Assembly (NCBI GenBank): GCA_900473745.1
Contig: UCMW01000014.1
Location: forward strand, 1-64,000
Direction of reading: 5' to 3'
Source: Hyphomicrobiales bacterium
GTDB taxonomy: Bacteria; Pseudomonadota; Alphaproteobacteria; Rhizobiales; Rhizobiaceae
Length of the DNA: 64,000 nucleotides
Shown here: in pieces, positions 46,362-64,000 of the stretch
Position numbering within the stretch: the stretch's first letter is position 1
Layout: every line of letters starts with the position of its first letter
The notes under the pieces: model-generated
Told to the model about the DNA's origin: nothing
Databases searched by the model: none
What the model saw: only the letters and a program-made list of their open reading frames with translations
Made by a program: the position numbers and the translations under genes

Positions 46362-47519
46362 ATGCAGACACCGATCTCCATAGACCCAGACTATCTCAGG
46401 GCGCGGCTGAAAGCATTGCTCGCCATCCCTAGTCCCACAGGTTTCACCGACGAGGCCGTTCGGCACACGGCGCGTGAACTCGAGCGCCTCGGGCTTGAGG
46501 TCAAACTGACCCGTCGCGGCGCGATCCGAGCCCGGCGTCCCGGTGCTTCGGAGCGGCCCGCGCGTGCAATCGTTTCACATCTCGACACGCTCGGTGCGCA
46601 GGTGAAAGCGCTCAAGGAGAATGGTAGGCTCGAACTCGTGTCGATCGGTCACTGGTCTGCGCGGTTCGCCGAGGGCGCACGCGCCTCGATCTTTTCGGCG
46701 AAAGGCATCTATCGTGGCTCGATCCTGCCACTGAAAGCGTCGGGTCACACGTTTAACGAGGAGGTCGACACACAGCCGACCGGTTGGCAGCATGCCGAGT
46801 TGCGAATTGATGCCTTGGCGCGCGATCGCAAGGATATCGTGCAGCTCGGCATCGACATCGGCGATATCGTCGCCATCGATCCGCAGCCAGAATTCCTCGA
46901 CAATGGGTTCATCGTCTCCCGGCATCTGGACGACAAGGCCGGGGTGGCGATCATGCTGGCCGCACTCGAGGCCATGCAGCGCGAAAACATCGAAACGCCA
47001 GTCGATACCTACTGGCTCTTCACCATCGGTGAAGAGGTCGGCGTCGGTGCTTCCGCGGCTCTCGTGCCGGAGATTGCCTCTCTCGTCGCGGTCGACAATG
47101 GGACGACCGCCCCGGGCCAGAATTCCGACGAGTTCGGCGTAACGCTCGCCATGGCGGACCAGACCGGTCCCTTTGACTATCACCTGTCCAAGAAGCTATT
47201 CGAGCTTTGCGGCGAACACGGCATCCGTGTGCAGAAGGATGTATTCCGCTACTACCGGTCAGATGCGGCCTCGGCCGTGGAAGCTGGACATGATGTGCGC
47301 ACAGCACTCCTCGCCTTCGGGGTCGACGCTTCGCACGGCTATGAGCGCATCCATCTCCATGCGCTGATTTCGGTGGCAAAACTCGTCGTCTACTACGTTG
47401 CGAGCGATGTTCAGATCGAGCGCGATTCCGAGGAGGTCTCCGGCTTGCGCGGCTTCACCCGCCAGAAGGTCGCGCCTGCGGAACAGAGCTTCACGGCGGA
47501 TGAAGCCGACGAGCCCTGA
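46362..47519 (+). CDS. M42-family metallopeptidase (osmoprotectant NAGGN-type)
   Basis: A 385-residue di-metal hydrolase. Ligand positions are recognisable: His in VSHLDTLG, Asp in SRHLDDKAGVA, the Glu pair in TIGEEVGVG, Asp in VAVDNGT and the last His in YERIHLHAL. The sequence style matches the M42-like peptidase that accompanies N-acetylglutaminylglutamine amide synthesis. That system normally has an amidotransferase and an acetyltransferase beside it; neither is present here, so this copy is an orphan. The start is ATG 46362. Confidence 0.75.
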   Translation: MQTPISIDPDYLRARLKALLAIPSPTGFTDEAVRHTARELERLGLEVKLTRRGAIRARRPGASERPARAIVSHLDTLGAQVKALKENGRLELVSIGHWSARFAEGARASIFSAKGIYRGSILPLKASGHTFNEEVDTQPTGWQHAELRIDALARDRKDIVQLGIDIGDIVAIDPQPEFLDNGFIVSRHLDDKAGVAIMLAALEAMQRENIETPVDTYWLFTIGEEVGVGASAALVPEIASLVAVDNGTTAPGQNSDEFGVTLAMADQTGPFDYHLSKKLFELCGEHGIRVQKDVFRYYRSDAASAVEAGHDVRTALLAFGVDASHGYERIHLHALISVAKLVVYYVASDVQIERDSEEVSGLRGFTRQKVAPAEQSFTADEADEP

Positions 47520-47695
47520 CGTTTTCAATGCAGGCAATCCATCAGGTTGGACGCTTCAGGATGGCGGAACTCGATGCCCTCATGGCCCGCCGGGTCTGGC
47601 CGATTGGAGGTGTTGACGCTTGATCTCATCCGCGACAGGCTGTGGGCCGGATCGACGGAACCCTCCTGTTCATTGCCCGAAAGCCTTGATTGCCG

Positions 47696-48448
47696 ATGCC
47701 AAGCGTAGTCCGTTCAGCAGGTCCTGTCGCGGTCGATATCTGGAACTGGTCTTTGGATGAGGCTTTTGCGGATGCTGCCGAAGCCTGTGCACTGCTTGTC
47801 GACACCGAACGTGAGCGAGCAGAGCGCTTTCTCAGGGATATCGATCGTCGGCGCTACAGCATGGGACGGGCGGGCCTAAGGCTCATCCTCGCGAGCTATC
47901 TCGGCATCGAGCCGTCGGTCATCCGCTTCGCCTACAACAGCTGGGGTAAACCGCATCTCGATCTCGGCTATCGCGCAGAAAGAGTTCACTTCAACCTGAG
48001 CCACAGCGCCGGAGAGGCGGTGCTGGCCGTTTCGAGACAGGCAGAAATCGGCATCGACATCGAGGAAATTCGCCAACTCGAGGAAGATGTCGCCGGCCAT
48101 TTCTTTTCCCGGCCAGAGTGTGCCGCGCTCGCAGCCCTGCCGGCTGGTGAACAACTGGCCGGGTTCTATCGGTGCTGGACCCGCAAGGAGGCCTTCGTCA
48201 AGGCGCATGGGGCGGGGCTCTCCGTTCCGCTGCATGGCTTTGATGTTTCACTGAATGTGGAGGACGGGCAGCACTTGCTCAAGCGCCTCGACCAAAACAT
48301 CGGCCTGCTTTCCGACTGGGCACTGCTCAATCTCGACGTGGTCGAAGGCTTCCATGGGGCGCTTGCCGTGTGTTCGGCCGGGCGAAACGTCGTGGTCCAC
48401 TACCGCAGCAGGTCGGCCTGGTCCGCGAACATCGCGTCGATGACGTAG
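47696..48448 (+). CDS. 4'-phosphopantetheinyl transferase (Sfp type)
   Basis: A 250-residue enzyme that loads phosphopantetheine onto carrier domains. The magnesium/CoA motifs are EIGIDIEEIRQ near residue 118 and FYRCWTRKEAFVKAHG near residue 160, with the N-terminal WGKPHL block. The start at ATG 47696 (MPSVVRS) has only a weak ribosome site. It is convergent with the PKS/NRPS operon and its last 49 bases overlap the end of the GINT1-like gene on the other strand. It most likely activates the four carrier domains of that cluster. Confidence 0.9.
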   Translation: MPSVVRSAGPVAVDIWNWSLDEAFADAAEACALLVDTERERAERFLRDIDRRRYSMGRAGLRLILASYLGIEPSVIRFAYNSWGKPHLDLGYRAERVHFNLSHSAGEAVLAVSRQAEIGIDIEEIRQLEEDVAGHFFSRPECAALAALPAGEQLAGFYRCWTRKEAFVKAHGAGLSVPLHGFDVSLNVEDGQHLLKRLDQNIGLLSDWALLNLDVVEGFHGALAVCSAGRNVVVHYRSRSAWSANIASMT

Positions 48449-50022
48449 CGGCCGTTCGAGGCGTCCATGTGGTGACACGCGATGATGCCAGGGGCGAAAT
48501 CTGGTTTTATGGTTCGGATGCAACGCTCGCTGTAGCTATCGAGATCGAGTTCCTCGACCTCCATTATGTTCAGCCCGTAGCCGTAGATGCCGTATTCATT
48601 GCGCTGGGAAGGGCGATAAAGTCGGCCCCCGTGCTCGAACGGACGACCGCCATTGCGCGCCTCTGTGCTGCCCATGACCACCGGATTGTTGCGGTGAGGT
48701 TTGATCCATTTGAGGTCCGGACCATCCACCTCGAAGACATGCAGTTCGCTGCAGTGATCCTCATAGGCATGGAATTCCGACAGATTGGTGAAAAGCCACC
48801 ACTTTCCAGCGAAGGGGAAGAGCGCGGAATCCGCGGAAGATTGGCCTTCCAAGGCTGTCGCATGCAGCTCCCAGCGCAGTGGAAATTCAATGCATCGCCA
48901 GACTTCCAGCCGACGCGCCTGGTTCGTCTCGGGGATCATGAAGATCCCGTCCGCGTGACGAAAAACAAAGGGATAGGAGAGATGATGCTCCGCCTTCAGG
49001 GCGATGCCCAGCCTCTCCAGCCTGTCATCCACGAGCCGCCCGACTGCTATATGTGCCTTGGTATCGCTTGGCGTGTAGGCCTCGTAAAAGACGTAGGTCT
49101 CCTCATCATGCTGAAACAGGAAGGGATCCGCCCGAAGCTCGTCATCGTCCGGTTTCAGCAGGACCGCCGTCCGTGGGTCAAAGTCTTCCGGCCGGCCGTT
49201 TCCGACGAAAATGGCCCAGGGTGGGGCTGCGATCTTGAGCCTGACCTCCAAGGCCTCGCGCCCACGCGCCAGCAGGTTGCGACCCACCCTCACTCCGTAG
49301 GGCAAGAGTTTGGCAAGGCTCGGCGGTCGATGGGCTGTTGTGGTGGCGGACGAGGGCAGGGTGCAGAGAACCCGCTCGACTGCAAGCTTGCGCAATTCCC
49401 GCATGACCAATGTCACTGCACGTTCCTTGATGAAGTCGCTGTTGCGCACGGCGCTGAATTTCGTGCTGAACTCTGCTTCCGCCAGCAGTTTGTCATCCCG
49501 ATCGTCGGTCTGGCGAACGGTAATGTGCAGCTTCGTCGAAGGATTTCTCGCCATCACCTCTTGATAGCCGTACCAGTCGGCGCTGGCATTGGCCTCTTCC
49601 AGGAAGGAGAACTGCCACGACCCGTAGGGCAATCTGGGCAATGCACCCAGAGGGATGTCCAGAGGAGAAATTGCCAGAACCAGATCCAGATTTTGCCCCA
49701 AGTCCGCGTCAGGCAAGTCGTCGAGAGCGATGAAAGGAAAGTCCGCAGATTCTTGGCTTGTTGGAATGTATCGAGGCTGGCGTCCGAGCGTCGATCGTTC
49801 CAGCGCCGCAGCCAGCCGAAAGGCGGCCGGTGCCGCGGCTTGCTTTGGAGGGCAGAGGATGATCGACTGAAGGCAAAGCCTGTCATCGGCGAGAAGTCGA
49901 TGGATCAGGGCAAGCTGCCAGTTGTCGAAGCCATGACGGCGATCCGCCAGCAGGCCGATTCGCAAGGGCTCCAGCGCGGGCTGTATGGAGCTTCTCGCAG
50001 CTTGTCCGGATGACGCGTCCAT
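48400..50022 (-). CDS. Formyltransferase/GINT1-N-like protein with beta-propeller domain
   Basis: A 540-residue protein from ATG 50022, one base from the stop of the C-T-TE gene. The N-terminal part (LRIGLLADRRHGFDNWQLALIHRLL) resembles the nucleotide-fold start of formyltransferase-like proteins in polysaccharide loci. From about residue 270 repeated blades appear (LRADPFLFQHDEETYVFYEAY, LSYPFVFRHADGIFMIPE, DSALFPFAGKWWLFTN, NGGRPFEHGGRLYRPSQ), similar to glycosidase-type five-bladed propellers and the N-terminal domain of plant GINT1. It is last in the biosynthetic operon, so it may tailor or glycosylate the product. Function is inferred only. Confidence 0.6.
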   Translation of the reverse strand: MDASSGQAARSSIQPALEPLRIGLLADRRHGFDNWQLALIHRLLADDRLCLQSIILCPPKQAAAPAAFRLAAALERSTLGRQPRYIPTSQESADFPFIALDDLPDADLGQNLDLVLAISPLDIPLGALPRLPYGSWQFSFLEEANASADWYGYQEVMARNPSTKLHITVRQTDDRDDKLLAEAEFSTKFSAVRNSDFIKERAVTLVMRELRKLAVERVLCTLPSSATTTAHRPPSLAKLLPYGVRVGRNLLARGREALEVRLKIAAPPWAIFVGNGRPEDFDPRTAVLLKPDDDELRADPFLFQHDEETYVFYEAYTPSDTKAHIAVGRLVDDRLERLGIALKAEHHLSYPFVFRHADGIFMIPETNQARRLEVWRCIEFPLRWELHATALEGQSSADSALFPFAGKWWLFTNLSEFHAYEDHCSELHVFEVDGPDLKWIKPHRNNPVVMGSTEARNGGRPFEHGGRLYRPSQRNEYGIYGYGLNIMEVEELDLDSYSERCIRTIKPDFAPGIIACHHMDASNGRYVIDAMFADQADLLR

Positions 50023-50023
50023 G

Positions 50024-52576
50024 TCAGGGATTTCCGTCCGCGAGCCGCTCTTCGATTGCGCCGGCCAATCGACGCATTCCATCGACGGTGAGCGAGTCCT
50101 CGTGCCAACCTTCCAGGTCGATCACAGTTGCTTTGCCGGCGACATTTTCATTCCAGCCGAACAGAAGCTTTCGCGCACGGGCTGGGCTTGCTTCACTGCG
50201 GAAGAGTATCAGTTCTCCAATCGGTTCCGCCCTGAAGTTCCTGGCCGAGTGCACCAGGTAGTCGGTGACGTGAACATTCGCCGTCTCTTCCACACTCGCC
50301 TTGATCCTGTCTGGGCTGAAGGTTGCGAGCAGCCAATTGGTCACGCGGAATTCCTTCAGGAAAACACTTGGCCTCATCCTGCCGGTCAGAAGCTTACGGA
50401 TGAAGTATGTCGTGCGCTTCAGGCGCCGTTCCGCGTTCCACAGCCGCTGGCGCAGCCAAGGCTGCGAGCGGAAATAGCCGGGCGCCCACGCATCTATTGC
50501 CGCAGTGAACGCGACATTGACGCCAGATTGACGGAGCTGGCGCGCCACTTCCAGGGCCAGAATCCCGTTGACGCACAATCCGACGATGCCGACCGGTCCG
50601 GCACCTCTCGGTACATCCATGGCGCGGATCGCTGAGGCGGCGACATCTTCCAGTTTCGTTTCCGCCGACAACTCCGTCTCCGAAGCGCCGAACATGTTGA
50701 CGTTGTAAACTGAGACGGCATCGCTCAGACGGTTGGCAAGCTGGTAGTAAAGGAAAGGATGGTTGATCGTGTAGACAGCGCAGTTCCCTGTTCCCTGTTT
50801 ATAGCTGTTGCGCTCCCAGGCCGGCGCAAATGCGGCGACCGAGGTAAACGGAGGGGATGGGCTTGGACCAAAGGCCGCTTCGGCAAAACCTCGGAGCGTC
50901 TGTTGCTTGAAGAGCAAGGTGAGTTCGGGCTTTGTGCCGAAACGCTCTTTGACGGCCGACAGCATGCGCAGCGCCAGGAGCGAATGCCCGCCGAGCGCGA
51001 AGAAATCGCCGTCCGGCTCGACCTTGTCGACATCGAGGACGTTTGCCCAGATTTCGCCGAGAAGCCGGATGCGCTCGGCAGCGGACAGCGCAGACAGATC
51101 CTCCGGCCCAGCGGACATGGGGGGCTCATCCGTCGGTGTCGCGTGATTGCCGGAAATCGAACCTGTCGAAGAAACGGCGATTGCAGGAGGAACGGCGGCG
51201 AGTGAATGCTGCCCGATGCCGCTGGGTGACAGCGGTGCGGACGGGGAACTCAGCGCCTGCTCATAGACATCCTGCCACATTTTCAGGATGCGTTCGATCG
51301 TGGACCGGTCGAAGAGATCGGTGTTGTATTCGATCGACATGCGCCAGCCGGACGGGCGTCCGACCATGCCGAAGCTGATGTCATAGACCACGCCCGGTGA
51401 CTGTGACGCTGCGCTGAGCAGTTCGAAGTCGCCATAGCGGCGGTCTTCCATGAAGGCCTTGGAGAGATTGAAGTTGACCGAGATCAGCGGGTTGCGGGAG
51501 GGATCGCGCACCGGATTGATGAATTCCACCAGCTTGTTGAAAGGCATGCGCTGGTGATTGACAGCGGCGCTAACCGTCTGCGTTGCTGACTGCAGGTGGT
51601 CCTCGAAGCTCATGGACGGCCGGACCGGCAGACGCAACACCATATTGTTGATGAAGACGCCGATCATCGGTTCGAGATCGGATTGTTCGCGTCCCGCGAT
51701 CTGGGTGCCGAAGAGGATGTCTTCGGCTCCAGTGACGCGATGGAGAACAGCACTGACGATCGCAACGCCGTAGGCGAACAAGGAGACTTTGTGCTCACGG
51801 GCAGCGGCCTCGATGCGCTCGCCGAATTCCACAGACTTGACTGCGGACATGATGTCGCCGCTCGTCGTCTTGATTGCCGGCCGCACGTGATCGCTCGGGA
51901 CCTCGAAATAGGGTGCGCCAGCCAGTGTTTCCTTCCAGAAGCTTCGCTCCGCCTCGAAGCCATAGCTCGACAGGTATTCCTGCTGCCACAGGGCGAAGTC
52001 GCCATATTGCAGGGGCAGGTCCGGCAGTACGGGGGCACGACCAGCCTCCATCGCGGATGCGATTTCACCCAGTTCGCGGCCCAGGACACGGATCGACCAA
52101 CCGTCGAAGCAGGTTTGGTGGGCGGTGATCAGCAGGAAGGCGCGGTTGTTCTCGACCATCAGCAAGGTCACGCGAAAGAGACCGCCGCGCGCGAGATCGA
52201 AGGGCGCGGATGCCGTCTCCTCGCCGATCGACAGGATTCGCTGTTCACGCTGTTCCGGTGGCATGTTTCTGAGATCGATGACCGAAAGCTTGAAGTCTTC
52301 CGCCTCGAGAACCTGCTGGTACGGATTGCCTTTCCGCTCCACGAAGCGCGTACGCAGGATCTCGTGGCGCTGGATGATTTTCTTGAAGGCTGCCTCGATC
52401 GTCGACGCTTTGAAGGATCCTCTGATTTCCCAGCGAACGGCGACATTAAGGGCCGGATTTCCGGGCTGCAGCTGGTCGAGCACCCAGCACCGGAGCTGGG
52501 TCTGCGTGCAGGGAAACTCGCCGATGATCTCCGGCGCGGAGCTGGATGCGACCGTCTGGCTTTCCTGCTGGGTCAT
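50024..52576 (-). CDS. Nonribosomal peptide synthetase, C-T-TE
   Basis: An 850-residue terminal protein. The condensation domain spans about residues 20-445 and has HQTCFDG at 153-159, Gln replacing the catalytic second His of HHxxxDG. The carrier domain (about 490-565) keeps its Ser in LGGHSLLAL (Ser 532). The thioesterase (about 600-850) has the elbow GLCVNG, so the nucleophile is Cys 668, with His 825 in GWHED. There is no adenylation domain between C and T. Its ATG overlaps the stop of the megasynthase by one base. It likely receives the chain from the upstream carrier and releases it, perhaps by cyclisation. Confidence 0.9.
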   Translation of the reverse strand: MTQQESQTVASSSAPEIIGEFPCTQTQLRCWVLDQLQPGNPALNVAVRWEIRGSFKASTIEAAFKKIIQRHEILRTRFVERKGNPYQQVLEAEDFKLSVIDLRNMPPEQREQRILSIGEETASAPFDLARGGLFRVTLLMVENNRAFLLITAHQTCFDGWSIRVLGRELGEIASAMEAGRAPVLPDLPLQYGDFALWQQEYLSSYGFEAERSFWKETLAGAPYFEVPSDHVRPAIKTTSGDIMSAVKSVEFGERIEAAAREHKVSLFAYGVAIVSAVLHRVTGAEDILFGTQIAGREQSDLEPMIGVFINNMVLRLPVRPSMSFEDHLQSATQTVSAAVNHQRMPFNKLVEFINPVRDPSRNPLISVNFNLSKAFMEDRRYGDFELLSAASQSPGVVYDISFGMVGRPSGWRMSIEYNTDLFDRSTIERILKMWQDVYEQALSSPSAPLSPSGIGQHSLAAVPPAIAVSSTGSISGNHATPTDEPPMSAGPEDLSALSAAERIRLLGEIWANVLDVDKVEPDGDFFALGGHSLLALRMLSAVKERFGTKPELTLLFKQQTLRGFAEAAFGPSPSPPFTSVAAFAPAWERNSYKQGTGNCAVYTINHPFLYYQLANRLSDAVSVYNVNMFGASETELSAETKLEDVAASAIRAMDVPRGAGPVGIVGLCVNGILALEVARQLRQSGVNVAFTAAIDAWAPGYFRSQPWLRQRLWNAERRLKRTTYFIRKLLTGRMRPSVFLKEFRVTNWLLATFSPDRIKASVEETANVHVTDYLVHSARNFRAEPIGELILFRSEASPARARKLLFGWNENVAGKATVIDLEGWHEDSLTVDGMRRLAGAIEERLADGNP

Positions 52577-55500
52577 TACAGGCTCTCCATCCGACGTCGT
52601 GCGCCATTCCGGAAACTGGCGAGCGAGGGTATCTGGTAGACGACCCCTCCGACGGCCGGCGCGTTCTCTGCGGTTTCGTCGGCGTAGGCTGCAAGCTCGG
52701 CAATCGAGGGATAGCGAAGCAGGTGTTTCGCTTCCAGCTGGAGACCGGCATCCAGCATGCGGGCGGCAATACGGAAGATCGTCAGCGAGTCCGCGCCGAG
52801 CGCATAGAGATTGTCCTCGACACCAATCGGATCGATGTCCAGCACGCCCTTCCAGATCGTCAAGAGCTTTTCTTCCATCGGTGTGCGCGGTGCTGTCTTG
52901 GGGGCTGCGGTTTCGACCTCGCTGCGACGCAATTCGCGTGTTTCGAGCGTCTTGCGATCCAGCTTGCCGTTTCTCGTCAGGGGCAGTTCTGTTTCCAGCG
53001 ACCAGACGGCCGGAACCATGTAGGCCGGCAAATGCGCTCGCACTGCGTTTGCCAACTGCATGGGGTCTGCCGCCGGGGAGCCGGCGTCGGCCACGAAGTA
53101 GCAGGCGAGAACGAGTTCACCGCGACCATTTCGGGCGCCGACAACTGCACATTGGCGCATGCCTTCGACCTGTGAGACGACAGCTTCGATGTCACCGAGT
53201 TCAATGCGGAAGCCACGCAGCTTCACCTGGTTGTCCCGGCGGCCGAGCAGCTGCAGGGAGCCGTCTTTGAGGCGCCGCCCGAGATCACCCGTCTTGTAGA
53301 GACGCTGCGTTTGGCCGAGGCCGATATCGCGCGAGACAAAGGCCTCTTCGGTGAGATCGGGTCTGTCGAAATAGCCTTGGGCAAGGCCATCGCCGCCGAT
53401 GAACAGTTCGCCGGTGATGCCAGGAGGTGCGAGGCGGCCGTCTGCGCCGAGGATGTGGAGCTGCGTGTTGGCGATCGGATGACCGATGGTAATCGGTGCT
53501 TCGCAGTCTTCAATTTGTGCAACGGAAGACCAGATCGTCGTTTCGGTGGGGCCATACATGTTCCAGAGGCTACCCTGCATTGCGGCCAGTGTCCGGGCGA
53601 GGGCCTTGGGCAGGGCTTCCCCGCCGCACAGCTTTTTCAAGGGGCTGTCGCCATCGAGCCCGGCTTCGACGATCATCTGCCAGAGGGTCGGCGTCGCCTG
53701 CAGGATGGTTGCCTTACTTTCCTTGATCAGCCGAACGAGGGCAAAACCATCTTCGACCTCGGCGCGGTCGGCGATGACGACGCTGCCACCCACAACAAGA
53801 GGCAGGTAGAGTTCCAGGCCGGCGATATCGAAAGAAATCGTGGTCACGGCGACGATGACGTCGTCGGCTGTGAAGCCTGGTTCCCGCGCCATAGACAGGA
53901 GAAAGTTCGTCAGCGACCGATGGGAGATCGTCACACCCTTCGGCGTTCCCGTCGAACCCGAGGTAAAGATCACATAGGCTGTCGCTTCGGTGTCGGTCGG
54001 CAGGCGCTCCAGTTGAGCGCCGGAAAGGGCCTCAATGCTGTCCGCCACCTCATCCAGGCGGATCTTCACCATGCCGTCGGTGGCGAGCGCCGCTGCGGTC
54101 TCGTTCCCGCAAACAAGAGCGGCTGGTCTTGCTGCGGCAAGCGTCTGGCGCAACCGTGTCTCCGGATGGCCGGGATCGAGCGGGACATAGGCGTGTCCGG
54201 CCTTCATGATGCCGATGAGTGCCACCAGCATGTCGAGCGAGCGGTCGACAAGCAGTGCCACGCGCTCGCCTTGCCCGGGGACGATCTTGCGGAGATGCCG
54301 GGCAAACCGATTGGTTTGCGCCTCGAGTTCGGCATAGGTGATCGTCCGTCCGACATGGCGTGCTGCAACGGCTTCTGGTGTCGATTGCGCCCTGTCTGCG
54401 ATGAGCGAGAAGGCGAATTCATCCTGGGGATAATCCAAGACACTCTGATTGAGGTCTTCCGCCAGCCATTTCATCTGCTGCGAAGACAGGAGAGGGAGGT
54501 CGGTCACGGGGCGGCTGATGTCTTCCGCAAGGGCCGTGATCACCGTGACGAGATGGCCGATCCAGCGTTCGACCGTGTCACGGTCGAGGACGTCGGCATT
54601 ATAGTCCACATCGATCCGGATACCGTCCTTGCTCTCAATCATGTTGAGGAACATGTCGAAATTCGCGAATGATTTGGGGTTGGGCACGATCTTGGCGTCG
54701 AGCCCTTCGAATTCCGCGTTCGCCGCGATGCGTTCGAGGTTGAACTGGATGCCCGTTAGCGGCAGTCGGCGCGGATCGCGCTTGACCCCCAGGGTCTTCA
54801 CAAGAGTGCCATAAGTGTAGTCCTGGTGCTCGAAGGCTTTCAGGACCAGTTGTTGCGTGGTCTTCAGGTGGTCTTCGAACGGGGTCGCCGGTTCTACCGT
54901 CTGGCGGATCGGCAGCAGGTTCACGCAGTGTCCGACGAGAATGCGTTCGTCGACCAGGCTCTGGCCTGCAGACGGCACCGCGATGACGACATCATTCTGG
55001 CCGGACAGGCGCGCGAGCACGACCTGGAGGGCCGCCAGCATGGTCGAGAACATCGTGGCCCCCGTCCGCGCGCCACGTTTCCGAACCGCCGTCGTGATTT
55101 CCGGGGGCACGATAACGGTGCAGGTCCCGCCGGCATAGCTGCGCCGATCGGGGTATGGGCGATCAAAAGGCATGTCCGGGAGTTCGGGCAGTTCCCTGTA
55201 CTGTTCATGCCAAAACTGTGAGGTCGTGGTGCTGACATCCGCGCGGGGAGCATGGTTTTCGGCATAGTCGGCGAAAGACATGGCCGGCTCGAGCGAGAGT
55301 CTTTCCGCCTTCAAGACCGCCGAATAGATCGCGGCGAGTTCGTTGATGATGACGTTCAGCGACCAGCCGTCGCAGACGATGTGATGCGCGGTGAAGACCA
55401 GCACATGACGGTCCGGGCCGAGCGCCACGAGATAGGCTCGGGCCAATGGACCTTCCACCAGGTCGAACGGGGTCTTCGCGTCGATCTCGATCAAGTCGTC

Positions 55501-58500
55501 GAGAGCGGCTTTTGCATCAGCCTCTCCGGTCAGGTCCACGGAATCGACCGGAAGCTTGAAGTCGGAGATGAAACGAAAACGTTCGCCGTTTCGGTCGAAA
55601 CGGATGTGCAGGGCGTCATGCCGGGCAATGACCGCATCGATGGCGGCAAGGAAGGCCTTGCGGTCCAGGGAACCGTTCAGTTCAAGCGAGAGGGACTCGT
55701 TGAACGAGCATGACGCATCGTCACCTGCCTGCGCTGCCAGCCAGATCTCGGATTGTGCTTCCGTCAGAGCGGCGCTTTCGGCGCGGACTGCCTGATGCAG
55801 GGTCGGCTTGGGGCCACGGTCAGGTGCAGGCGCCGGGCCGGTCAGTTCGCTCTCGACCTTGGGGGCGAAGATGCCGACCACTTGCAGCGCGTCGATCGCA
55901 TCGCGAAACGCGCGCGCGATCGTCTTGAAATCCTCTTCGGTATGGGCTGTCGTCAGGAAGCAGGGATAGCCATCCTGGATATGGATGCCGTTCATGCGCA
56001 GATAGGGGTAGAGCAGGCCGCCGAGGGGATCCTGGCTGCTGAAGTCCGTGACGAACCAGCTCTTGTAGCCGCGTAGGCAGGGCGAGACGCCGCGCTCAGC
56101 GAGTTCCGAATTGATCTCGTCGACCAGGGCTTCGGTGCGTCGCGCCACACGGTCGTAGAGGGCGGAGCCTTCGCCCTTGATGTGGTGAAGCACGGCGCGG
56201 GCCGCTGCCAGAACTACGGGATGGCGGACGAATGTGCCGGCGAAGAAGGTCGGGACCACATTCGGCACGGAGTCGTCGCCGTAGTTCCAATGCCCACCGT
56301 CCAGGGCATCCATGAAGCGGCCGCTTCCCGCCAGGACACCGATCGGCATGCCGCCGCCGACGACCTTGCCGTAGGTTGCCATGTCACCCTTGATGCCCCA
56401 AATGGCCTGGACGCCACCGGGATCGACGCGGAATCCGGTGACCACTTCGTCGAAGACGAGCGCGCAGCCCGATGTGTCGGCGATCTTGCGCAATTCGGCC
56501 ACGAAAGCGCGCGGCCGCAATTCGGGATGCCGGCTCTGGATCGGTTCGATGATCACTGCCGCGAGATCCTCGGCATTCGTCCTGATCCAGTCGAGGCTTT
56601 CCGGCGCTCCGTAGGGGAGCACAACCATGTTGCCGACGGAGCCCGAGGGGATGCCGGCCGCGATCGGCAGGGCAATCGGTTCCTTGGCCTTGGCGCGACC
56701 TTTCACAAGAACTTCGTCGAACTGGCCATGATAGTCGTTGGCGAATACGACGATTCTGTCGCGGCCGGTGACGGCACGGGCGAGGCGCATGGCTGCCATG
56801 ACGGCTTCGGATCCCGTGTTGCAGAAGGTAACGCGTTCGTGGCCGGTCATGGCGCCGAAGAGTTCGGCGACCTCGCCGGCAAGTGGAGTCTGTGGGCCGA
56901 TGGCAAAACCATCATCCATCTGGATCTTCATGGCGTCGACAACGAAGTCCGGCGCATGGCCGAAAGCCGTCTGGCCGAAACCATTGACGAGGTCGATGTA
57001 TTCGTGGCCGTCGATATCCCAGATGCGGGCGCCCTTGGAGCGATCGCAGACCACGGGGAAGGTCATTTCCTTCCATTCGGACCTGAAGCCGGAAGCGGTG
57101 CGGGGATCTGCGAGGCGGGCTCGATGCGTCTGAGTGTATTCCTTGGACCGCTTGTTGCGGTTGGAATAAGCCAGGACCAGATCGTTGATGAAGTTTTCCT
57201 TCTCAGGTGTGATGTCCGTCTTGGCCTTCGATCCTCCCTGCTGGTAGTGGCGATAACGTTCTCCGCCGATCTCCTCGGAGGGGCCGCTATCCTGAAACGC
57301 CTGCGGTGTCACCGTGGCCTGTGGCGCGGCCACGGTGACCGGGGCGACAATCGGCGGGACCAATGCCGGCGGTGCCGTCGCCACAACAGCCGCTGGCGCC
57401 GATGCTGCGCCCTGGAGAAGCTGGAATTGTTGGGCAAAGAGGTTCTGCGTGAGCGCTAGCTGCGATTGCAGCAGAGCTTCGAGGCCTGTGCCGCCCGGGA
57501 TATGGCCTTGCTGGACTGTCTGGATGCCGCCGGAGATGCCTGGCAGCGGCGCCGGGGGTGGTGCGGAGATCTGCGGCGCCATCTGGGCAGTGGCAGGTTG
57601 GGAAGCGATCGGCTGCACGGCTGCTGCGGGCGCTGGGCTAAACGCTACCTCCACCTTTGCCGGCTCGGGCGGCAGGGCCTGGTCCAGATATTTCGCCAGG
57701 GCCGCAATCGACGGGATGTTGCCAAGCAGTTCGCGGAACGAGATCTTCACGCGATACTGCTTGTCTATTTTCTGCGCGAACTGCCCGATGAAGAGGGAAT
57801 CGAAGCCGAGTTCGAGGAAACTGTCGTTGACGTTGCCCGAATGTATTGGTTCGCCGGACATCTCGCTCAAAAGAGTGATCAGCGCGGTCTCCAGTTCCGG
57901 AGTGCGATCGGCGACCGTGATGGTGCTGATGGCGTTCATGGTTTCCACCTCGTCTCTTGCGAATGGCTCGCTCTTGATACTCTCTGGTTCTGTCTGTCGT
58001 ACGGGTTGGGCCGCGCGTGCCCGCCGCATCGATGGCGGGGCGTCGATCCAGTGTCGCTGCCGCTGGAAGGGATAGGTCGGCAGCGAAACTGTTTTTCGGG
58101 TTTCGTTCGGCAGGCCGGGCCAGGGAAGGTCGCTGCCCGCCATCCAGAGGCGCCCATGGGCGTCGGCGATGAAATGCCGTGCCGCAGAGGCGTTGTCATG
58201 CTCTGGAAGAGACTGCACGATGGCCGGCAACTGGTCCCGGCCGATGGTCTGAGCGGCGAAGACAGATAGCGTTCGGCCAGGGCCTACTTCGAGAAGGATC
58301 GGGCTTTGGTCCTTGCACAGTGTAACGAGGCCATCGGAAAAACGGACGGGTTCACGGCAATGTCGCGACCAGTAGTCCGGGGAGGATCCCAGAGCGTCAG
58401 TCTGCCAGTCGCCCGTCACGCAGGAGATGTAGGGGATAGTCGCGCGACCGTAGGTCACCTTCGATGCGACATCGCGCAGTGCGTCGATGCAGGGCTCCAT

Positions 58501-60747
58501 CATCGCGGAATGGAAGGCGTGCGAAGTATGCAGCCGGCTGAATGCGATGCCGGCCTTCTCAAGCCTGAAACACAAGGCCTCGATATCTTCGAGTGGGCCC
58601 GAGGCCACGCAAAGCTTCGGCGCGTTGATCGCGGCGATCTCCGCATGGCCCATCAGGTGCTCGCGGAGCGTCTCCGGTGCTGCACGAACGGACAGCATAG
58701 CTCCAGGCGCCTGATCCTGCATCAGTTGTCCGCGGGTGGCCACAAGGGTCAAGGCATCCTCGAACGAGATGACATTCGCCAGCGTGGCCGCCACGAACTC
58801 GCCGACGCTGTGTCCGATCATGGCCGCTGGCCGCAGACCACGGCTCATCCATAGCTGGGCGAGGGCGTATTCCACGAGATAGAGGCAGGGCTGCGCGATC
58901 CGGGTTTCCCTCTGCTCAGCCGCCATCGCGCTGCTGACGGCGCCGGCATGGCAGATATATTCCTTCAGATCGATGCCGAAGCGCATCTTCAGGAGCTCGG
59001 TGCCGCGATCGATCCAGCGGGCAAACTCCGGCTCGCCGTCATAAAGGGCTGCTCCCATGCCGACATATTGCGCGCCCTGACCGGGGAACATGAAAACGAT
59101 CGGCGGCGGTTGATCCTCGGCGGTCGCCGTCACCAAACCGTCCCGTCCGAGGGCCTTGATGGCTTCATCAACCGTGGCTGCGGAAATGGCTGTCCTAGTT
59201 TTGAATGCGTGGCGGCCCTGCTGAAGCGTGGCCGCGACCGCCTGCAGGGAAATGTCGCCGTTCTTTTCAAGGCGATCTGCAAGGTTCCTGCGCATCTCCG
59301 ACAATGCAGGCTCCGACCGGGCGGAAAGCGGCAGGATCACGGGGCCGGAATGCTCCTCGCGCGTTTCGGCCCTTTTCGGGGCCTCCTCCAGCACGACATG
59401 GATGTTGGTTCCACCGACGCCGAAGGCACTGACGCCCGCTCGACGCGGCGTCGAACCCGAAAACCAGTCCGTTGTCTGGCGTGGAATGTAAAACCGGGTG
59501 TTGCCCAGATCGATCCGGGGATTGGGTGTCTTGTAGTTCGGCATCGCCGGTATCTTGCGGTGGTGCAAGGCAAGCGTGGCCTTGATCAGTCCCGCCACGC
59601 CAGCGGCCGCATCCAGATGACCGATCGACCCTTTCAACGATCCGAGCGCACATGTTTCCTTCTGGTCATGTGCGCCAGTGAAGGCTTCTTTCAGGCCGGA
59701 GAACTCGATGGGATCGCCGAGAGGTGTCGCGGTTCCATGGCATTCTATATAGCCGATGGTCGCCGGGTCGATGCCGGCATGGGCGATCGCGGCGCTGATG
59801 GCATCAGCCTGTCCTTCTGCACTCGGGGCGGTAAAGCCGATCTTGTCGGAGCCGTCATTGTTTACGGCGTAGCCACGGATCGTTGCGTAAATCAGGTCGC
59901 CATCTTCCACGGCGTCTTCCAAACGTTTCAGGAGAACCACGCCTGCGCCGCTCCCGAAGACGGTGCCGGAAGCATCGGCATCGAAAGGGCGGCAGATCCC
60001 GTCGCGGGAAACCATCCCGCCTTCCTGGTAGATATAGCCACGCTTCTGAGGAATGGTGATGGAGACGCCGCCCGCCAGCGCCATGTCGCAACTGTAGGTC
60101 AGAAGGTTCTGGCAGGCCTGGGAAACTGCGAGCAGGGATGTGGAACAAGCCGACTGCAGGGTGAAGGCGGGGCCGCGAAGATTGAACTTGTAGGCGATGC
60201 GCGTGGCAAGGGCATCGCCGAGAGAGCCGATCAGCTGGTTGTAGCATCCGATCTGGTAGTTGGAGGTGACCTCCTCCACGGCGGCGCGGTCGGCAAGAAC
60301 GTTGTTCAGAAGATAGGTCGGCATCGAGCAGCCAGCAAAGACGCCGACAAGGCCGGGGCTCTTGTAGGGATCGTAGCCCGCGCCTTCGAGCGCTTCCCAG
60401 CAGATTTCAAGGAAGACACGATGCTGGGGATCCGTGAGGGCCGCCTCGCGGGCGAACATGCCGAAGAACTCGGCGTCGAAGCGGTCTACGTCCGCGAGAT
60501 GTGGGCGGCATGCGACGAATTCGGGGGATGAGCGTTCCTCGTCTGTGAAGCCGTCCTCCAGCTCGTCGGTAGCGAAGATGCGAAAGGCGTTGCCGCCACG
60601 TTTGACGAGGTCCCAGAGTGCGGCGATATCGGGCGCGTCCGGAAACCGACCGGACATTCCCACAATGGCAATGCCGCCTGGCAGATCAGGATCACCTGGG
60701 GCGTCGGTCTCCGGGTTAAGGCCATTTGGCCGGGTGTCGACGTTCAT
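52576..60747 (-). CDS. Hybrid PKS/NRPS megasynthase KS-AT-ACP-aminotransferase-C-A-T
   Basis: A 2723-residue multidomain enzyme. KS spans 24-455, with Cys 201 in ACSTS and His 337 and 377. AT spans 550-860, with Ser 647 in GHSVGE and a HAFH motif at 743-746 that indicates malonyl-CoA. ACP spans 945-1025, with Ser 984. An Ala/Pro/Gln-rich linker covers 1025-1160. A class III-type aminotransferase spans 1180-1625, with Lys 1461 in ATYGKVVGGG. C spans 1655-2085 and has an intact AHHIVCDGW. A spans 2100-2605 (TSGSTGTPKG, YGPTETT, NGKLDRK), and T spans 2620-2690 with Ser 2654. There is no ketoreductase, so the beta-keto group should be transaminated to a beta-amino acid, as in iturin/mycosubtilin synthases. 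Confidence 0.95.
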   Translation of the reverse strand: MNVDTRPNGLNPETDAPGDPDLPGGIAIVGMSGRFPDAPDIAALWDLVKRGGNAFRIFATDELEDGFTDEERSSPEFVACRPHLADVDRFDAEFFGMFAREAALTDPQHRVFLEICWEALEGAGYDPYKSPGLVGVFAGCSMPTYLLNNVLADRAAVEEVTSNYQIGCYNQLIGSLGDALATRIAYKFNLRGPAFTLQSACSTSLLAVSQACQNLLTYSCDMALAGGVSITIPQKRGYIYQEGGMVSRDGICRPFDADASGTVFGSGAGVVLLKRLEDAVEDGDLIYATIRGYAVNNDGSDKIGFTAPSAEGQADAISAAIAHAGIDPATIGYIECHGTATPLGDPIEFSGLKEAFTGAHDQKETCALGSLKGSIGHLDAAAGVAGLIKATLALHHRKIPAMPNYKTPNPRIDLGNTRFYIPRQTTDWFSGSTPRRAGVSAFGVGGTNIHVVLEEAPKRAETREEHSGPVILPLSARSEPALSEMRRNLADRLEKNGDISLQAVAATLQQGRHAFKTRTAISAATVDEAIKALGRDGLVTATAEDQPPPIVFMFPGQGAQYVGMGAALYDGEPEFARWIDRGTELLKMRFGIDLKEYICHAGAVSSAMAAEQRETRIAQPCLYLVEYALAQLWMSRGLRPAAMIGHSVGEFVAATLANVISFEDALTLVATRGQLMQDQAPGAMLSVRAAPETLREHLMGHAEIAAINAPKLCVASGPLEDIEALCFRLEKAGIAFSRLHTSHAFHSAMMEPCIDALRDVASKVTYGRATIPYISCVTGDWQTDALGSSPDYWSRHCREPVRFSDGLVTLCKDQSPILLEVGPGRTLSVFAAQTIGRDQLPAIVQSLPEHDNASAARHFIADAHGRLWMAGSDLPWPGLPNETRKTVSLPTYPFQRQRHWIDAPPSMRRARAAQPVRQTEPESIKSEPFARDEVETMNAISTITVADRTPELETALITLLSEMSGEPIHSGNVNDSFLELGFDSLFIGQFAQKIDKQYRVKISFRELLGNIPSIAALAKYLDQALPPEPAKVEVAFSPAPAAAVQPIASQPATAQMAPQISAPPPAPLPGISGGIQTVQQGHIPGGTGLEALLQSQLALTQNLFAQQFQLLQGAASAPAAVVATAPPALVPPIVAPVTVAAPQATVTPQAFQDSGPSEEIGGERYRHYQQGGSKAKTDITPEKENFINDLVLAYSNRNKRSKEYTQTHRARLADPRTASGFRSEWKEMTFPVVCDRSKGARIWDIDGHEYIDLVNGFGQTAFGHAPDFVVDAMKIQMDDGFAIGPQTPLAGEVAELFGAMTGHERVTFCNTGSEAVMAAMRLARAVTGRDRIVVFANDYHGQFDEVLVKGRAKAKEPIALPIAAGIPSGSVGNMVVLPYGAPESLDWIRTNAEDLAAVIIEPIQSRHPELRPRAFVAELRKIADTSGCALVFDEVVTGFRVDPGGVQAIWGIKGDMATYGKVVGGGMPIGVLAGSGRFMDALDGGHWNYGDDSVPNVVPTFFAGTFVRHPVVLAAARAVLHHIKGEGSALYDRVARRTEALVDEINSELAERGVSPCLRGYKSWFVTDFSSQDPLGGLLYPYLRMNGIHIQDGYPCFLTTAHTEEDFKTIARAFRDAIDALQVVGIFAPKVESELTGPAPAPDRGPKPTLHQAVRAESAALTEAQSEIWLAAQAGDDASCSFNESLSLELNGSLDRKAFLAAIDAVIARHDALHIRFDRNGERFRFISDFKLPVDSVDLTGEADAKAALDDLIEIDAKTPFDLVEGPLARAYLVALGPDRHVLVFTAHHIVCDGWSLNVIINELAAIYSAVLKAERLSLEPAMSFADYAENHAPRADVSTTTSQFWHEQYRELPELPDMPFDRPYPDRRSYAGGTCTVIVPPEITTAVRKRGARTGATMFSTMLAALQVVLARLSGQNDVVIAVPSAGQSLVDERILVGHCVNLLPIRQTVEPATPFEDHLKTTQQLVLKAFEHQDYTYGTLVKTLGVKRDPRRLPLTGIQFNLERIAANAEFEGLDAKIVPNPKSFANFDMFLNMIESKDGIRIDVDYNADVLDRDTVERWIGHLVTVITALAEDISRPVTDLPLLSSQQMKWLAEDLNQSVLDYPQDEFAFSLIADRAQSTPEAVAARHVGRTITYAELEAQTNRFARHLRKIVPGQGERVALLVDRSLDMLVALIGIMKAGHAYVPLDPGHPETRLRQTLAAARPAALVCGNETAAALATDGMVKIRLDEVADSIEALSGAQLERLPTDTEATAYVIFTSGSTGTPKGVTISHRSLTNFLLSMAREPGFTADDVIVAVTTISFDIAGLELYLPLVVGGSVVIADRAEVEDGFALVRLIKESKATILQATPTLWQMIVEAGLDGDSPLKKLCGGEALPKALARTLAAMQGSLWNMYGPTETTIWSSVAQIEDCEAPITIGHPIANTQLHILGADGRLAPPGITGELFIGGDGLAQGYFDRPDLTEEAFVSRDIGLGQTQRLYKTGDLGRRLKDGSLQLLGRRDNQVKLRGFRIELGDIEAVVSQVEGMRQCAVVGARNGRGELVLACYFVADAGSPAADPMQLANAVRAHLPAYMVPAVWSLETELPLTRNGKLDRKTLETRELRRSEVETAAPKTAPRTPMEEKLLTIWKGVLDIDPIGVEDNLYALGADSLTIFRIAARMLDAGLQLEAKHLLRYPSIAELAAYADETAENAPAVGGVVYQIPSLASFRNGARRRMESL

Positions 60748-62663
60748 GGAGTGCTCCGGCGGAACTGGGCCATCGTCCTACGCTGCAGGGCGGCTCGCTG
60801 GTCCGCCGCTGTGGCCCGAGACGGCGTCTGGTCGCGGCCGTCCAGAAAGCGTGCCATGTCGCGCACTGTGGGATGCTTGAAGAGAGCCAGAACCTCGCAG
60901 CGCTGGCCGAGTTCAAGCTCGAGGCCTGCATGGACCCGCATCAGCTGGAGCGACGTGCCGCCGAGATCAAAGAAGTTCCGGTCGGCCGGAACGACCTCCA
61001 GCCCGAGGGCGTCGCGCCAGAGCCGCATGAGAATTTCCTCGCTGCGACTGCGGATGGCCACCGGCTGGATGTCGTCGATCGGAGGCAGGGGCAAGCGTGC
61101 CCTGTCGATCTTTCCGGCGTGTGTCAGGGGGAAATCTGACATGACGAGCGCCGTGCTCGGGATCATGTAGGCCGGCAGACTGTTGCGCAGCCGCTCCATG
61201 ACCGCTGGAACGAGGTTTGCATTGGTCATGTCCTGTATTTCGCGGGGGCGGAGGTAGGCGATAATCCGCTTAACGCCACCGGTCTCCCGGCATTCCACCA
61301 CCGCTTCGGCGAGGCGCGGATGACGGCGCAGAGCCGTCTCGATCTCCTCCAGTTCGATGCGTTTGCCGTTGATCTTGACTTGGCGATCGCGGCGTCCCCG
61401 GAAATGAAAGGTCCCGTTCTCGTCCATGACGGCGAGGTCACCTGTCAGGTAACAACGCGTCGTGCCTTCGATGGTTTTAATCGAGACGAACCGTTCGGCT
61501 GTCAGGTCGGGTCGATTGAAGTATCCAAGGGCCAGCCCGTCACCGGCGATGGCGATCTGGCCTTCGATGCCGGGTGCCACAACCTGAAGATCGTCATCGA
61601 CCAGGATGACATCGGTATGGGCGATCGGTCTGCCGATCGGCAGTTCCGATGCGTCGAAATCTGCGGGGACCGTGAAGGTCGTTGCGATGCACGCCGCTTC
61701 CGTCGGACCGTATACGTTGGTTAGAAGGCAGGCTGGATGGGCAGCAACAAAGCGCTTCACATGCGGAGCTGATGCGACTTCGCCGCCGAAAATCGCATGG
61801 CGCAGGCTGGGCATGGGTTCATCCGCATGGTCGGCGAAAATGTTGAAGAGCCCCGTCGTGAAGTTGACGAATGTGATGTCGTGGACCCTGATCAAATCCC
61901 GCATGTCTGACAGCGAGAAGTTCGCCTTCGACATGATCACGAGGGTTGATCCGTTCAGGAGCGCGCCCCAGACATCCACGGTCGATGCGTCGAAGGAAAT
62001 CGTCGTCGAATGGAGGACCATGTCTCCCGGGCGGAATTCGATGAAATTCTGATCGAGCACCAGGCGAGTGATGCCGCTGTGTGGAACCGCCACGCCTTTC
62101 GGCCGACCCGTCGAGCCGGAGGTGTACATGACATAGGCGAGGTCCGATCCCTTGATGCTCGGCAGGCGGGACGGATCACCAGGTCCCAGGCTTTGCAGAA
62201 CCGTATGCAGGTCGACGATGCGGCTATCGGGAAGGCCGAGGCCACCTAGCTCCGAACCGCTATTGCCGGTGGTGAAGACGACCTTGGGGCGGCATTCGTC
62301 CAGAACATATTGAAGGTGGTCTGCCGGATAAGCCGGATCGAGCGGAAGATATCCTGCCCCGGCTTTCAGTATCGCGAGTTTGGCAACGACTGTTTCCAAA
62401 GCGCGCGGGACAAGCAGGCATATGACATCGCCTTTTTCGACGCCGCAGGACACGAGGTACGTGGCGAGCCCGTCGGAGAGCGCCTCAAGTTCGCCATATG
62501 TCAGACGGGCATCATCGCAAATGATGGCCACCGTATCCGGGAATGCGTTGGCATGATCCCTGACGACCTCCGGGACGCTCTGGCTCTTGCTGTAGCGGGT
62601 CGGTCGGCGGACGCTGCCGCCCGCCGCCTGTCCTTTATCCCCCACGACCTGAAATTCCGTCAT
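60744..62663 (-). CDS. NRPS loading protein, A-T didomain
   Basis: A 639-residue starter module from ATG 62663 (MTEFQVVGDKG). An in-frame ATG at 62786 has no ribosome site and lies past a dyad. The adenylation domain spans about 30-525, with YTSGSTGRPKG, NVYGPTEAA, YLTGDLAV and catalytic Lys in HAGKIDR. The carrier domain spans 540-605, with Ser 571 in LGGTSLQ. By position its specificity residues are D-A-V-N-I-G-V-C-I-K, which matches no code I can recall. It overlaps the KS protein start by four bases and would load the first acyl or aminoacyl unit. The C-terminal basic tail may serve docking. Confidence 0.9.
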   Translation of the reverse strand: MTEFQVVGDKGQAAGGSVRRPTRYSKSQSVPEVVRDHANAFPDTVAIICDDARLTYGELEALSDGLATYLVSCGVEKGDVICLLVPRALETVVAKLAILKAGAGYLPLDPAYPADHLQYVLDECRPKVVFTTGNSGSELGGLGLPDSRIVDLHTVLQSLGPGDPSRLPSIKGSDLAYVMYTSGSTGRPKGVAVPHSGITRLVLDQNFIEFRPGDMVLHSTTISFDASTVDVWGALLNGSTLVIMSKANFSLSDMRDLIRVHDITFVNFTTGLFNIFADHADEPMPSLRHAIFGGEVASAPHVKRFVAAHPACLLTNVYGPTEAACIATTFTVPADFDASELPIGRPIAHTDVILVDDDLQVVAPGIEGQIAIAGDGLALGYFNRPDLTAERFVSIKTIEGTTRCYLTGDLAVMDENGTFHFRGRRDRQVKINGKRIELEEIETALRRHPRLAEAVVECRETGGVKRIIAYLRPREIQDMTNANLVPAVMERLRNSLPAYMIPSTALVMSDFPLTHAGKIDRARLPLPPIDDIQPVAIRSRSEEILMRLWRDALGLEVVPADRNFFDLGGTSLQLMRVHAGLELELGQRCEVLALFKHPTVRDMARFLDGRDQTPSRATAADQRAALQRRTMAQFRRSTP

Positions 62664-63355
62664 CTGTGGTCCCGCTCCATTCGATTGCCTATGCTGCCAT
62701 CCGGTCACCGCGGCCGTGCGGCCGAGTTCTCGTTTGGCAAGGCATTCCCCAAGCTTCAGAATTTCACGGGACCGTGAAATGAACATCTGGTCATTGGGGT
62801 GAAAAGGGTCGGCTGACTAGCTTCGGCCTAATCCGTTTGGCCAGTGAGGTGGAACGCGCCCTCGAACCGTCCGCCGGAAAGGCGGAGACTGTGAATAGTG
62901 AGTAAAAGTCCAGGGGCCAAGCGCGGGGTCCGGGGCGTCAAGCGTGTGGTCGGACGGATGCCCATGCTAACGGAGATGAACCTCGACGCTGTCGGGCGAT
63001 GCTCCCCTTGACCCTTAAACATAGACGCTAAACTGCCGCAAGGCCTAGTCCAAAAGAAGTATCTGATCCAGATTGCTACCACTTTTGGACAGTTAACCTG
63101 GTAGAACTTGTACTCAATGGCCTATATGGAGGGTATAGGTTTCTGCTTTTTTTGATGACGAACAATTCTTTGAAGAATGGCAGGGTGCGAAGCACTCTTC
63201 CGCCTGCCGCTTGCGCCACGGAACATTCTTTCGGGCTTTCGGTTAACCTAAACTGGTAATCACTTTGGCAGAATCCCGAATGAATCTGATTACGCTGGGA
63301 AGTAAATGTGTTAAAAAATTGTTAGTCCGTGGGGTGCGGACATATAGGCGATATC
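62664..63355. other. Divergent intergenic region between biosynthetic operon and Crp/Fnr gene
   Basis: About 690 bases, more AT-rich towards the right end, with no supported gene. It holds the 20-bp dyad at 62761-62780. A weak hairpin, CCTATA-N7-TATAGG (63121-63139), is followed by a run of seven T's (63148 region) on the plus strand. The latter looks terminator-like although no gene ends there. Confidence 0.5.
62761..62780. promoter_or_regulatory. Candidate operator upstream of the biosynthetic operon
   Basis: ATTTCACGG-GA-CCGTGAAAT is a dyad with perfect 9-bp arms, about 100 bases upstream of the chosen A-T start. It is well placed to bind a regulator such as the divergent Crp/Fnr-type protein or another factor. 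Binding partner unknown. Confidence 0.45.
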
Positions 63356-64000
63356 ATGCGGCTGGATGATCATCTTAACATGCGTCAAGCATTGGCCTCA
63401 GAACACCGGAAGCCCGGTGCCCGGCCTACCCGCGCCAGCCTGCGCAGCTATCCCGCTGGAACAACGATTTTCGACGTCGAGACCCACTTGTCACGTGTCC
63501 TGTTCATAGAGAGCGGCTGGACGATCTCGAGCAAGACGATGTCGAACGGCACCCGTATCGTGACAGATTTCTTTCTGCATGGGGATGTTCTCTCGTCCGC
63601 TTCTACGAGCATGTCGCACGAGACCGTTCATGCCGTCTCCGACGTGACCTGTTATGAATTCCAGGGTCAGATGTCCGGTGCCGGCAGCGACGGTGGCTCG
63701 CAACTGCCGCTGATCATGACCATCGAACTGATGAAACGCCACGCGCGCATCGCCGAACGACTTGCCAGTATCGGGCGGCGAGATGCTTTCGGTCGCACCG
63801 GTCACCTGTTGCTGGAGCTGGCCGTTCGCGCGGGAAATCCTTCCCGCCCTGGCCTGAACGGATTCGAGTGCCCACTTAAGCAGTCGGAAATCGGAGATGC
63901 CTTGGGACTGTCGACCGTTCATGTCAATCGCGTGCTCAAGGAAATGCGGTTAGGCGGTCTGCTTTCCTTCCGCAACGGCATTGTCGAGTTTCTCAACCGG
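63356..64000 (+). CDS. Crp/Fnr-family transcriptional regulator (3' end outside window)
   Basis: The frame opens at ATG 63356 (MRLDDHLNMRQALASEHRK) and stays open to the last base, 215 codons. A cyclic-nucleotide-binding-like beta barrel (LRSYPAGTTIFDVETHLSRVLFIESGWTISSK, then TRIVTDFFLHGDVLSSAS) is followed by a Crp-type winged helix (CPLKQSEIGDALGLSTVHVNRVLKEMRLGGLLSF). There is no Fnr-like N-terminal Cys cluster. It is divergent from the PKS/NRPS operon and may control it. Confidence 0.85.
   Translation, partial: MRLDDHLNMRQALASEHRKPGARPTRASLRSYPAGTTIFDVETHLSRVLFIESGWTISSKTMSNGTRIVTDFFLHGDVLSSASTSMSHETVHAVSDVTCYEFQGQMSGAGSDGGSQLPLIMTIELMKRHARIAERLASIGRRDAFGRTGHLLLELAVRAGNPSRPGLNGFECPLKQSEIGDALGLSTVHVNRVLKEMRLGGLLSFRNGIVEFLNR

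Follow-up and report, generated by a model that had tools for sequence, protein, structure and literature searches.

What does a short line of nonribosomal peptide synthetase (NRPS) and polyketide synthase (PKS) proteins make, and where does its product go, when its genes lead directly into an exopolysaccharide locus? The question is raised by an operon near the end of the window, by which we mean the whole stretch of 64,000 nucleotides analysed here (contig UCMW01000014.1, positions 1 to 64,000, GenBank assembly GCA_900473745.1, from a Hyphomicrobiales bacterium of the Rhizobiaceae). Our preferred reading, to which we give a little under even weight, is that the operon is a short NRPS-PKS line of that exopolysaccharide locus and that it puts a diaminoacyl-glycine group on a sugar of the polysaccharide; the assembly is read from the domains, and the transfer from the gene neighbourhood alone. 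With somewhat more reserve, we suggest that a widespread NRPS-PKS class, rather than making free natural products, would build short cationic beta,gamma-diaminoacyl-glycine groups from a starter that varies by lineage, and that a degenerate condensation (C) domain and a cysteine thioesterase (TE) would move them onto Wzx/Wzy polysaccharides.

The aminotransferase (AMT) module at the centre of the line is a known kind of chemistry. What appears to be new is the amino-acid loader, the glycine module and the degenerate C-(T)-Cys-TE protein (T for thiolation) occurring together, recurrently beside exopolysaccharide genes, for which there was no match among the papers listed by searches of the open-licence literature of PubMed Central. 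The same searches listed no report of an NRPS-PKS line as part of a Wzx/Wzy locus and no paper on the cluster or its product, also where polysaccharides decorated with peptides were the subject. PKS-like clusters without a known product have been mentioned on rhizobial plasmids, in a paper whose main text does not contain the word "polysaccharide" (PMC10434180).

Operon architecture

Five coupled reading frames were found at 47690-62663, four of them on the minus strand and the fifth, an Sfp-type gene, convergent on the plus strand. Open reading frames (ORFs), Pfam and a fold search bear out the domain order given in an earlier note on this DNA, namely A-T, KS-AT-ACP-AMT-C-A-T, C-T-TE, a protein of formyltransferase fold and propeller, and the convergent Sfp-type transferase (A, adenylation; KS, ketosynthase; AT, acyltransferase; ACP, acyl carrier protein). 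The named domains pass their Pfam cut-offs, with one exception, the formyltransferase-fold N-terminus of the fourth protein. The features are as follows.

60744-62663, minus strand: A-T loading protein (Pfam AMP-binding and PP-binding; A at about 61110-62561, T at about 60843-61031)
52576-60747, minus strand: hybrid PKS-NRPS protein KS-AT-ACP-AMT-C-A-T, 2723 amino acids (Pfam, alignment of 22 sequences, A-domain code)
56026-57066, minus strand: class-III AMT domain embedded in the hybrid protein (Pfam Aminotran_3; PDB match)
50024-52576, minus strand: C-T-TE protein without an A domain, 850 amino acids (Pfam, motif alignments)
48400-50022, minus strand: two-domain protein, N-terminal formyltransferase fold at about 49240-49974 and C-terminal five-bladed propeller at about 48409-49188 (Pfam GINT1_N, models, fold searches)
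47690-48448, plus strand: Sfp-type 4'-phosphopantetheinyl transferase, convergent with the operon (Pfam ACPS and AASDHPPT_N)
63329-64000, continuing to 64093 on the contig, plus strand: start of a Crp/Fnr-type regulator gene, divergent from the operon (ORFs, Pfam, NCBIfam)

The start of the A-T protein was taken at M42 of an ORF of 680 amino acids, which gives 639 amino acids, the same length as the annotated SL42 homologue. The ORF of the fourth protein has 560 amino acids (from 50082); its second Met, M21, at 50022 and just after the stop of the C-T-TE gene, is a possible start, and among 16 aligned relatives six start at the column of M21, eight later and two earlier.

Distribution of the core

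Of 7992 proteins scored in a search with the ACP-AMT region, 4851 reached E <= 1e-30, and most of the 120 matches listed share the Pfam set, with Rhizobium, Ensifer, Sinorhizobium, Nitratireductor and Chelativorans among them. The best 80 of 580 confirmed genomic loci form our locus set (cited here by L numbers, L099 being a stretch of the window's contig); judged by record titles, they span alpha-, beta- and gammaproteobacteria, Bacteroidetes, Verrucomicrobia, Acidobacteria and cyanobacteria, and 63 of the 80 have KS and AMT in one frame. Counts from the ORF maps cover the genes read; some genes are masked there by frames on the opposite strand, for instance A-T and C-T-TE in L017, the KS gene in L040 and core genes in L098. 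The earlier note knew of no rhizobial product with this exact order; no paper on a product was listed by the searches named above, and the order itself is not a one-off, as it recurs in rhizobia and in several phyla. A unique rhizobial invention is rejected on the same ground.

Within the family of the window, the C-T-TE protein was searched against an even draw of 394 Rhizobiaceae genomes. A homologue was found in 21, of which 17 are strong (E 1e-150 or better, window included); the four weak matches (E about 1e-65 to 1e-68) were left out of the 17-genome set. Five other genomes of the same genus were in the draw, one with a weak match and four with none, and the cluster looks like an accessory trait.

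Two further observations concern individual lineages. The Bacteroidetes loci L037, L046, L053, L056, L059 and L073 have the order A-T-KS-AT-T-AMT followed by C-A-T-TE, with the nearest priming transferase or exporter gene 3 to 43 kb away, and with loader codes that are often proline-like or asparagine-like. In Rhodospirillales bacterium URHD0017 (L023), the KS-AMT gene has one in-frame stop.

A predicted 3,4-diaminoacyl-glycine chain

The AMT region finds its best PDB match in mycosubtilin synthase subunit A (E about 1e-125), an enzyme whose embedded aminotransferase is described as functionally characterised (PMC3870968). No ketoreductase, dehydratase or enoylreductase domain was found in the PKS module by the Pfam scan. 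Both results agree with the earlier note, which had invoked the aminotransferase logic of iturin and mycosubtilin synthases in an extending module without a ketoreductase. Across 22 aligned sequences, window included, the putative catalytic residues show no variation in KS, AT, ACP, AMT, the first C or the second T. The likeness to MycA and ItuA lies in the order KS-AT-ACP, embedded class-III AMT and C domain, with the AMT directly after a non-reducing KS-AT-ACP; the fatty-acyl ligase loader and the several modules of a heptapeptide line are not found. In MycA the starter is a fatty acid and the line goes on to a cyclic lipopeptide of seven residues, whereas the operon of the window loads an amino acid via A-T and has, in Pfam, only one further A domain, of the glycine type.

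The A domain of the loader reads DAVNIGVCIK by alignment, as it does in L015, L022 and L095. With Asp and Lys at the anchoring positions, it is an amino-acid-type A domain and not a fatty-acyl ligase; a fatty-acyl starter was rejected for this operon on that ground, in line with the A-T loader of the earlier note. The code varies elsewhere, being DAFFLGVVFK-like in other rhizobia and DAFWLGGTFK, presumably a valine-type code, in many other loci. Of the 63 loci in which one frame holds both KS and AMT, 50 possess an A-domain loader; it has an A-T gene of its own in 27 and is fused to the KS in 23, and these fusions tie the loader to the KS.

The second A domain has the code DILQLGMIWK, which we take to be glycine-type, in all 13 rhizobial-group loci read (L015-L022, L025, L049, L095, L096 and the window), and the same code is seen in several other phyla. 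The residue added by the hybrid protein is therefore probably glycine, so that the "one amino acid" which the earlier note placed after a beta-amino unit gains a probable identity. Taken as a whole, the domains predict a chain in which an amino acid is lengthened by the two carbons of malonyl, the keto group is turned into an amine and glycine is added, which would give a 3,4-diaminoacyl-glycine.

The terminal and fourth proteins

In the C-T-TE protein of the window, the C domain has HQTCFDG from residue 153, the T serine lies in LGGHSLL, and the TE has GLCVNG from residue 666, with Cys668 as the nucleophile; the Cys, Asp and His of the TE align in the window protein and its rhizobial relatives. 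It departs from a canonical NRPS termination module in having HQTCFDG for HHxxxDG and no A domain for its T. The second His is replaced in 22 of 27 C-T-TE or C-TE proteins (Gln 14, Ser 3, Ala 3, Tyr 1, Arg 1), a set from which two C-C-T-TE proteins (L069, L074) and the C-A-T-TE proteins are excluded; the nucleophile is Cys in 26 of them and Ser in one, and a T domain goes undetected in seven. The family sample agrees: in its 16 genomes other than the window, the second His is Gln in 14 and the TE has Cys in all 16. In four distant relatives (L030, L063, L071, L078) the TE comes directly after the second A-T, and these, together with the seven proteins in which no T was detected, suggest that an extra residue is not needed. 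Because it has no A domain, has lost the second His and has a Cys nucleophile, the terminal protein of the window probably adds no residue. The C-T-TE and release step of the earlier note thus stands as to its domains, and not as an ordinary extension module. A cysteine acyl-enzyme would suit handover to an amine or hydroxyl. KS-AMT clusters of Caballeronia and Paraburkholderia (L031, L033, L062) likewise end in a C-TE protein without an A domain, with an altered His and a Cys TE; they differ in that no T domain was detected and no homologue of the fourth protein was found in the stretches examined.

The N-terminal formyltransferase part of the fourth protein is invisible to Pfam and was detected by fold search on models, and the C-terminal half is a five-bladed propeller of the GH130/GH43/GINT1_N kind (model and fold search; Pfam GINT1_N). 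Both halves match folds of sugar-acting enzymes, among others. With the sugar N-formyltransferases (the N-terminal domain of ArnA, WbkC, FdtF) the protein has the fold in common; the expected catalytic Asn-x-His site of formyltransferases reads Gln157-Phe-Ser159 in the window protein and is variable among 17 aligned sequences, as placed by eye against that motif. The formyltransferase of the earlier note therefore survives as a fold, with no conserved Asn-x-His seen in this placement, and a formylated peptide was rejected as the default product. The comparison with GH130/GH43 propeller enzymes is by fold only. Plant GINT1 carries a GT64 catalytic domain; none was found in the fourth protein, which has only GINT1_N and a sub-threshold Glyco_hydro_43 match, and the identity as a GINT1 glycosyltransferase was rejected. 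PDB sequence searches with this protein gave no convincing relative (three matches at E 0.05-0.09 in one search and none in the other).

The exopolysaccharide neighbourhood

The window ends 1.3 kb past the operon, and its last 672 bases and the contig beyond lead into a Wzx/Wzy-type exopolysaccharide locus. Beyond the operon the contig has Crp/Fnr-type and LuxR-type regulators, a protein without a family match, GT8 and GT1 glycosyltransferases and a membrane protein of about 10 segments. These are followed by a priming sugar transferase, a flippase of the Wzx type, a TIGR04325 methyltransferase and a weak GT2-like match, and then by a Wzz-type protein that includes a nucleotide-binding domain, a Wza/SLBB-type exporter, more glycosyltransferases and a second flippase. 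Components of a Wzx/Wzy locus are thus present in a priming transferase (nearest to the WbaP model and below its cut-off), flippase, polymerase-like membrane protein, chain-length protein and outer-membrane exporter; the polymerase-like call is made only from about 10 hydrophobic segments, in a protein with no Pfam or NCBIfam match. These genes, the glycosyltransferases and, in relatives, pyruvyl transferases make up the likeness to Wzx/Wzy-dependent loci. Near the operon in at least one of four annotated relatives are a pyruvyl transferase, GH16, glycosyltransferases, a flippase, a sugar transferase and a tyrosine autokinase, as well as a DegT aminotransferase nearest to sugar aminotransferases and a GMC oxidoreductase nearest to pyranose oxidase and choline dehydrogenase, both of these under the model cut-offs.

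The association recurs. A priming transferase lies 3 to 18 kb from the C-T-TE gene, and so always within 20 kb, in 17 of 17 Rhizobiaceae genomes from 10 genera, window included (expected 0.5); among 36 genomes hand-chosen from the 80 loci for their long contigs, 26 have the priming transferase (PF02397) no more than 30 kb from the core (expected 1.6), three rows under the family cut-off having been dropped, and 20 have the Wza-type exporter (PF02563) at such a distance (expected 1.5); because the sampled genomes are related, these expectations overstate independence, and the numbers describe recurrence rather than independent trials. Ten long-contig loci were omitted from the 36 (L036, L055, L057, L058, L067, L081, L082, L089, L090, L094); a negative in every one of them would bring the priming-transferase count to 26/46. 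As a control, we took other NRPS clusters from 12 of the 36 genomes, collapsed by hand to 20; a priming transferase lies within 30 kb in 3 of these 20 (Fisher p 5.8e-5 against 26/36), or in 2 of 18 without the KS-AMT clusters G230:C103 and G233:C7 (Fisher 2.8e-5).

The flanks of 13 proteobacterial loci were surveyed with 120 of 130 listed flanking proteins. Among the largest Pfam families, at 5 to 7 members apiece, are Bac_transf, Polysacc_synt, Glycos_transf_1, Crp-type and LuxR-type regulators, DegT, pyruvyl transferase, GMC and GH16; of the NCBIfam models, the TIGR04325 methyltransferase is the most frequent, with 8 members. The 25 families listed, of 65 in these flanks, include no ABC, MFS or RND exporter.

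The TIGR04325 methyltransferase of the window's contig (L099:13158-14099) has relatives, by a hidden Markov model built from it, in 24 of 88 stretches, including cyanobacterial (L045, L050, L064), Bacteroidetes (L046, L059) and Acidobacteria (L069, L074) loci, the 8 NCBIfam matches coming from the 13 proteobacterial loci to which that check was applied; its substrate could be a peptide or a sugar. The pair of Crp/Fnr-type and LuxR-type regulators upstream of the operon (L099:3329-5100) is found likewise in 8 of 12 rhizobial stretches, and this recurrence suggests joint control of operon and polysaccharide.

Proposed decoration of a polysaccharide and its alternatives

In the reading that we prefer, the A-T protein would load an alpha-amino acid, the KS module would extend it by one malonyl, and the AMT would convert the beta-ketone to an amine, giving a 3,4-diamino acyl thioester which the next module would couple to glycine. 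The terminal C domain would act as a docking or acceptor-binding domain and add no residue, and the TE would accept the chain on its cysteine and hand it to a sugar, at an amine or a hydroxyl. This sugar would be a nucleotide sugar or a lipid-linked repeat unit, and the fourth protein may help to bind or position it. The outcome would be a polysaccharide exported by Wzx/Wzy and bearing small cationic diaminoacyl-glycine groups.

Several observations weigh against this reading, in addition to the limits on the neighbourhood counts given above. The exopolysaccharide link is not universal, since 9 of the 36 genomes have neither PF02397 nor PF02563 within 30 kb of the core; a Reyranella, a Nostoc and two Pedobacter records belong to these nine. 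The DegT and GMC genes of the relatives are not adjacent to the operon in the genome of the window, and genes for the cell surface may sit on one genomic island with genes for secondary metabolites without having a common product. With regard to the assembly line, the glycine-type code is not kept in L034, L038, L041, L042 and L054, among others; HHxxxDG is retained by 5 of the 27 terminal C domains and by 2 of the 16 in the family sample; and the last protein is a C-A-T-TE, which would add a residue, in L032, L052, L066, L070 and Bacteroidetes loci, for example. Cysteine TEs also occur in ordinary NRPSs that release free products.

In the main rival reading the operon makes a small molecule that stays free, either a 3,4-diaminoacyl-glycine or a ring closed from it by the TE, which would be secreted as a signal, metal ligand or antibiotic and would be merely co-located or co-regulated with the exopolysaccharide genes. 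We regard it as possible, though the less probable account. The assembly line is complete, the TE triad is aligned in the window and its rhizobial relatives, the nine genomes without either marker favour this rival, and a pair of RND efflux genes lies inside the window at 39734-44388. However, all 17 family genomes retain the priming transferase within 20 kb, other NRPS clusters of the same genomes are near one in only 3 of 20 cases, and the flank families listed hold no exporter. The RND pair is also absent from the cluster surroundings listed in the four annotated relatives, and was rejected as the exporter of the cluster for that reason. The exopolysaccharide setting weakens the default of a free peptide from which the earlier note had started.

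Instead of being a substituent, the product might help to export or anchor the polysaccharide, for instance as a carrier, a primer or a cross-linker; a role in capsule formation has reportedly been proposed for the rhizobial RkpA synthase, which offers a comparison. The same gene neighbourhood would fit, but no lipid-forming or fatty-acyl loading domain was found in the Pfam scan, and ordinary families are what the priming transferase, the flippase and the exporter match; we consider this role improbable. An iturin-type lipopeptide synthase, to which the AMT is closest in the PDB, is more improbable by far, given a loader with the Asp and Lys anchors of an amino-acid-type A domain and a single further A domain in the operon.

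If decoration of the polysaccharide is the true function, an orphan NRPS-PKS class would shift from "unknown natural product" to surface polymer decoration, and assembly-line chemistry would become a decoration system for bacterial surface sugars. Such a role would fit the location beside flippase, exporter and priming-transferase genes. Rhizobial exopolysaccharides would gain a cationic peptide-like substituent, with possible effects on plant recognition, biofilm and adhesion, and the altered C domain and Cys TE would together be a transferase that can link acyl chains from an assembly line to sugars. Such decoration of a polysaccharide would, if shown, be a larger step.

Other genes in the window

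On the far side of the operon, the Sfp gene adjoins an M42 peptidase of the osmoprotectant NAGGN system (46362-47519, plus strand; TIGR03106, above cut-off). Beyond the Sfp gene, at 39734-45088 on the minus strand, lie the MexE/OqxAB-like permease and adaptor of the RND efflux pair, together with a small esterase resembling hormone-sensitive lipase; the gene listings of the four annotated relatives do not show these genes next to the cluster.

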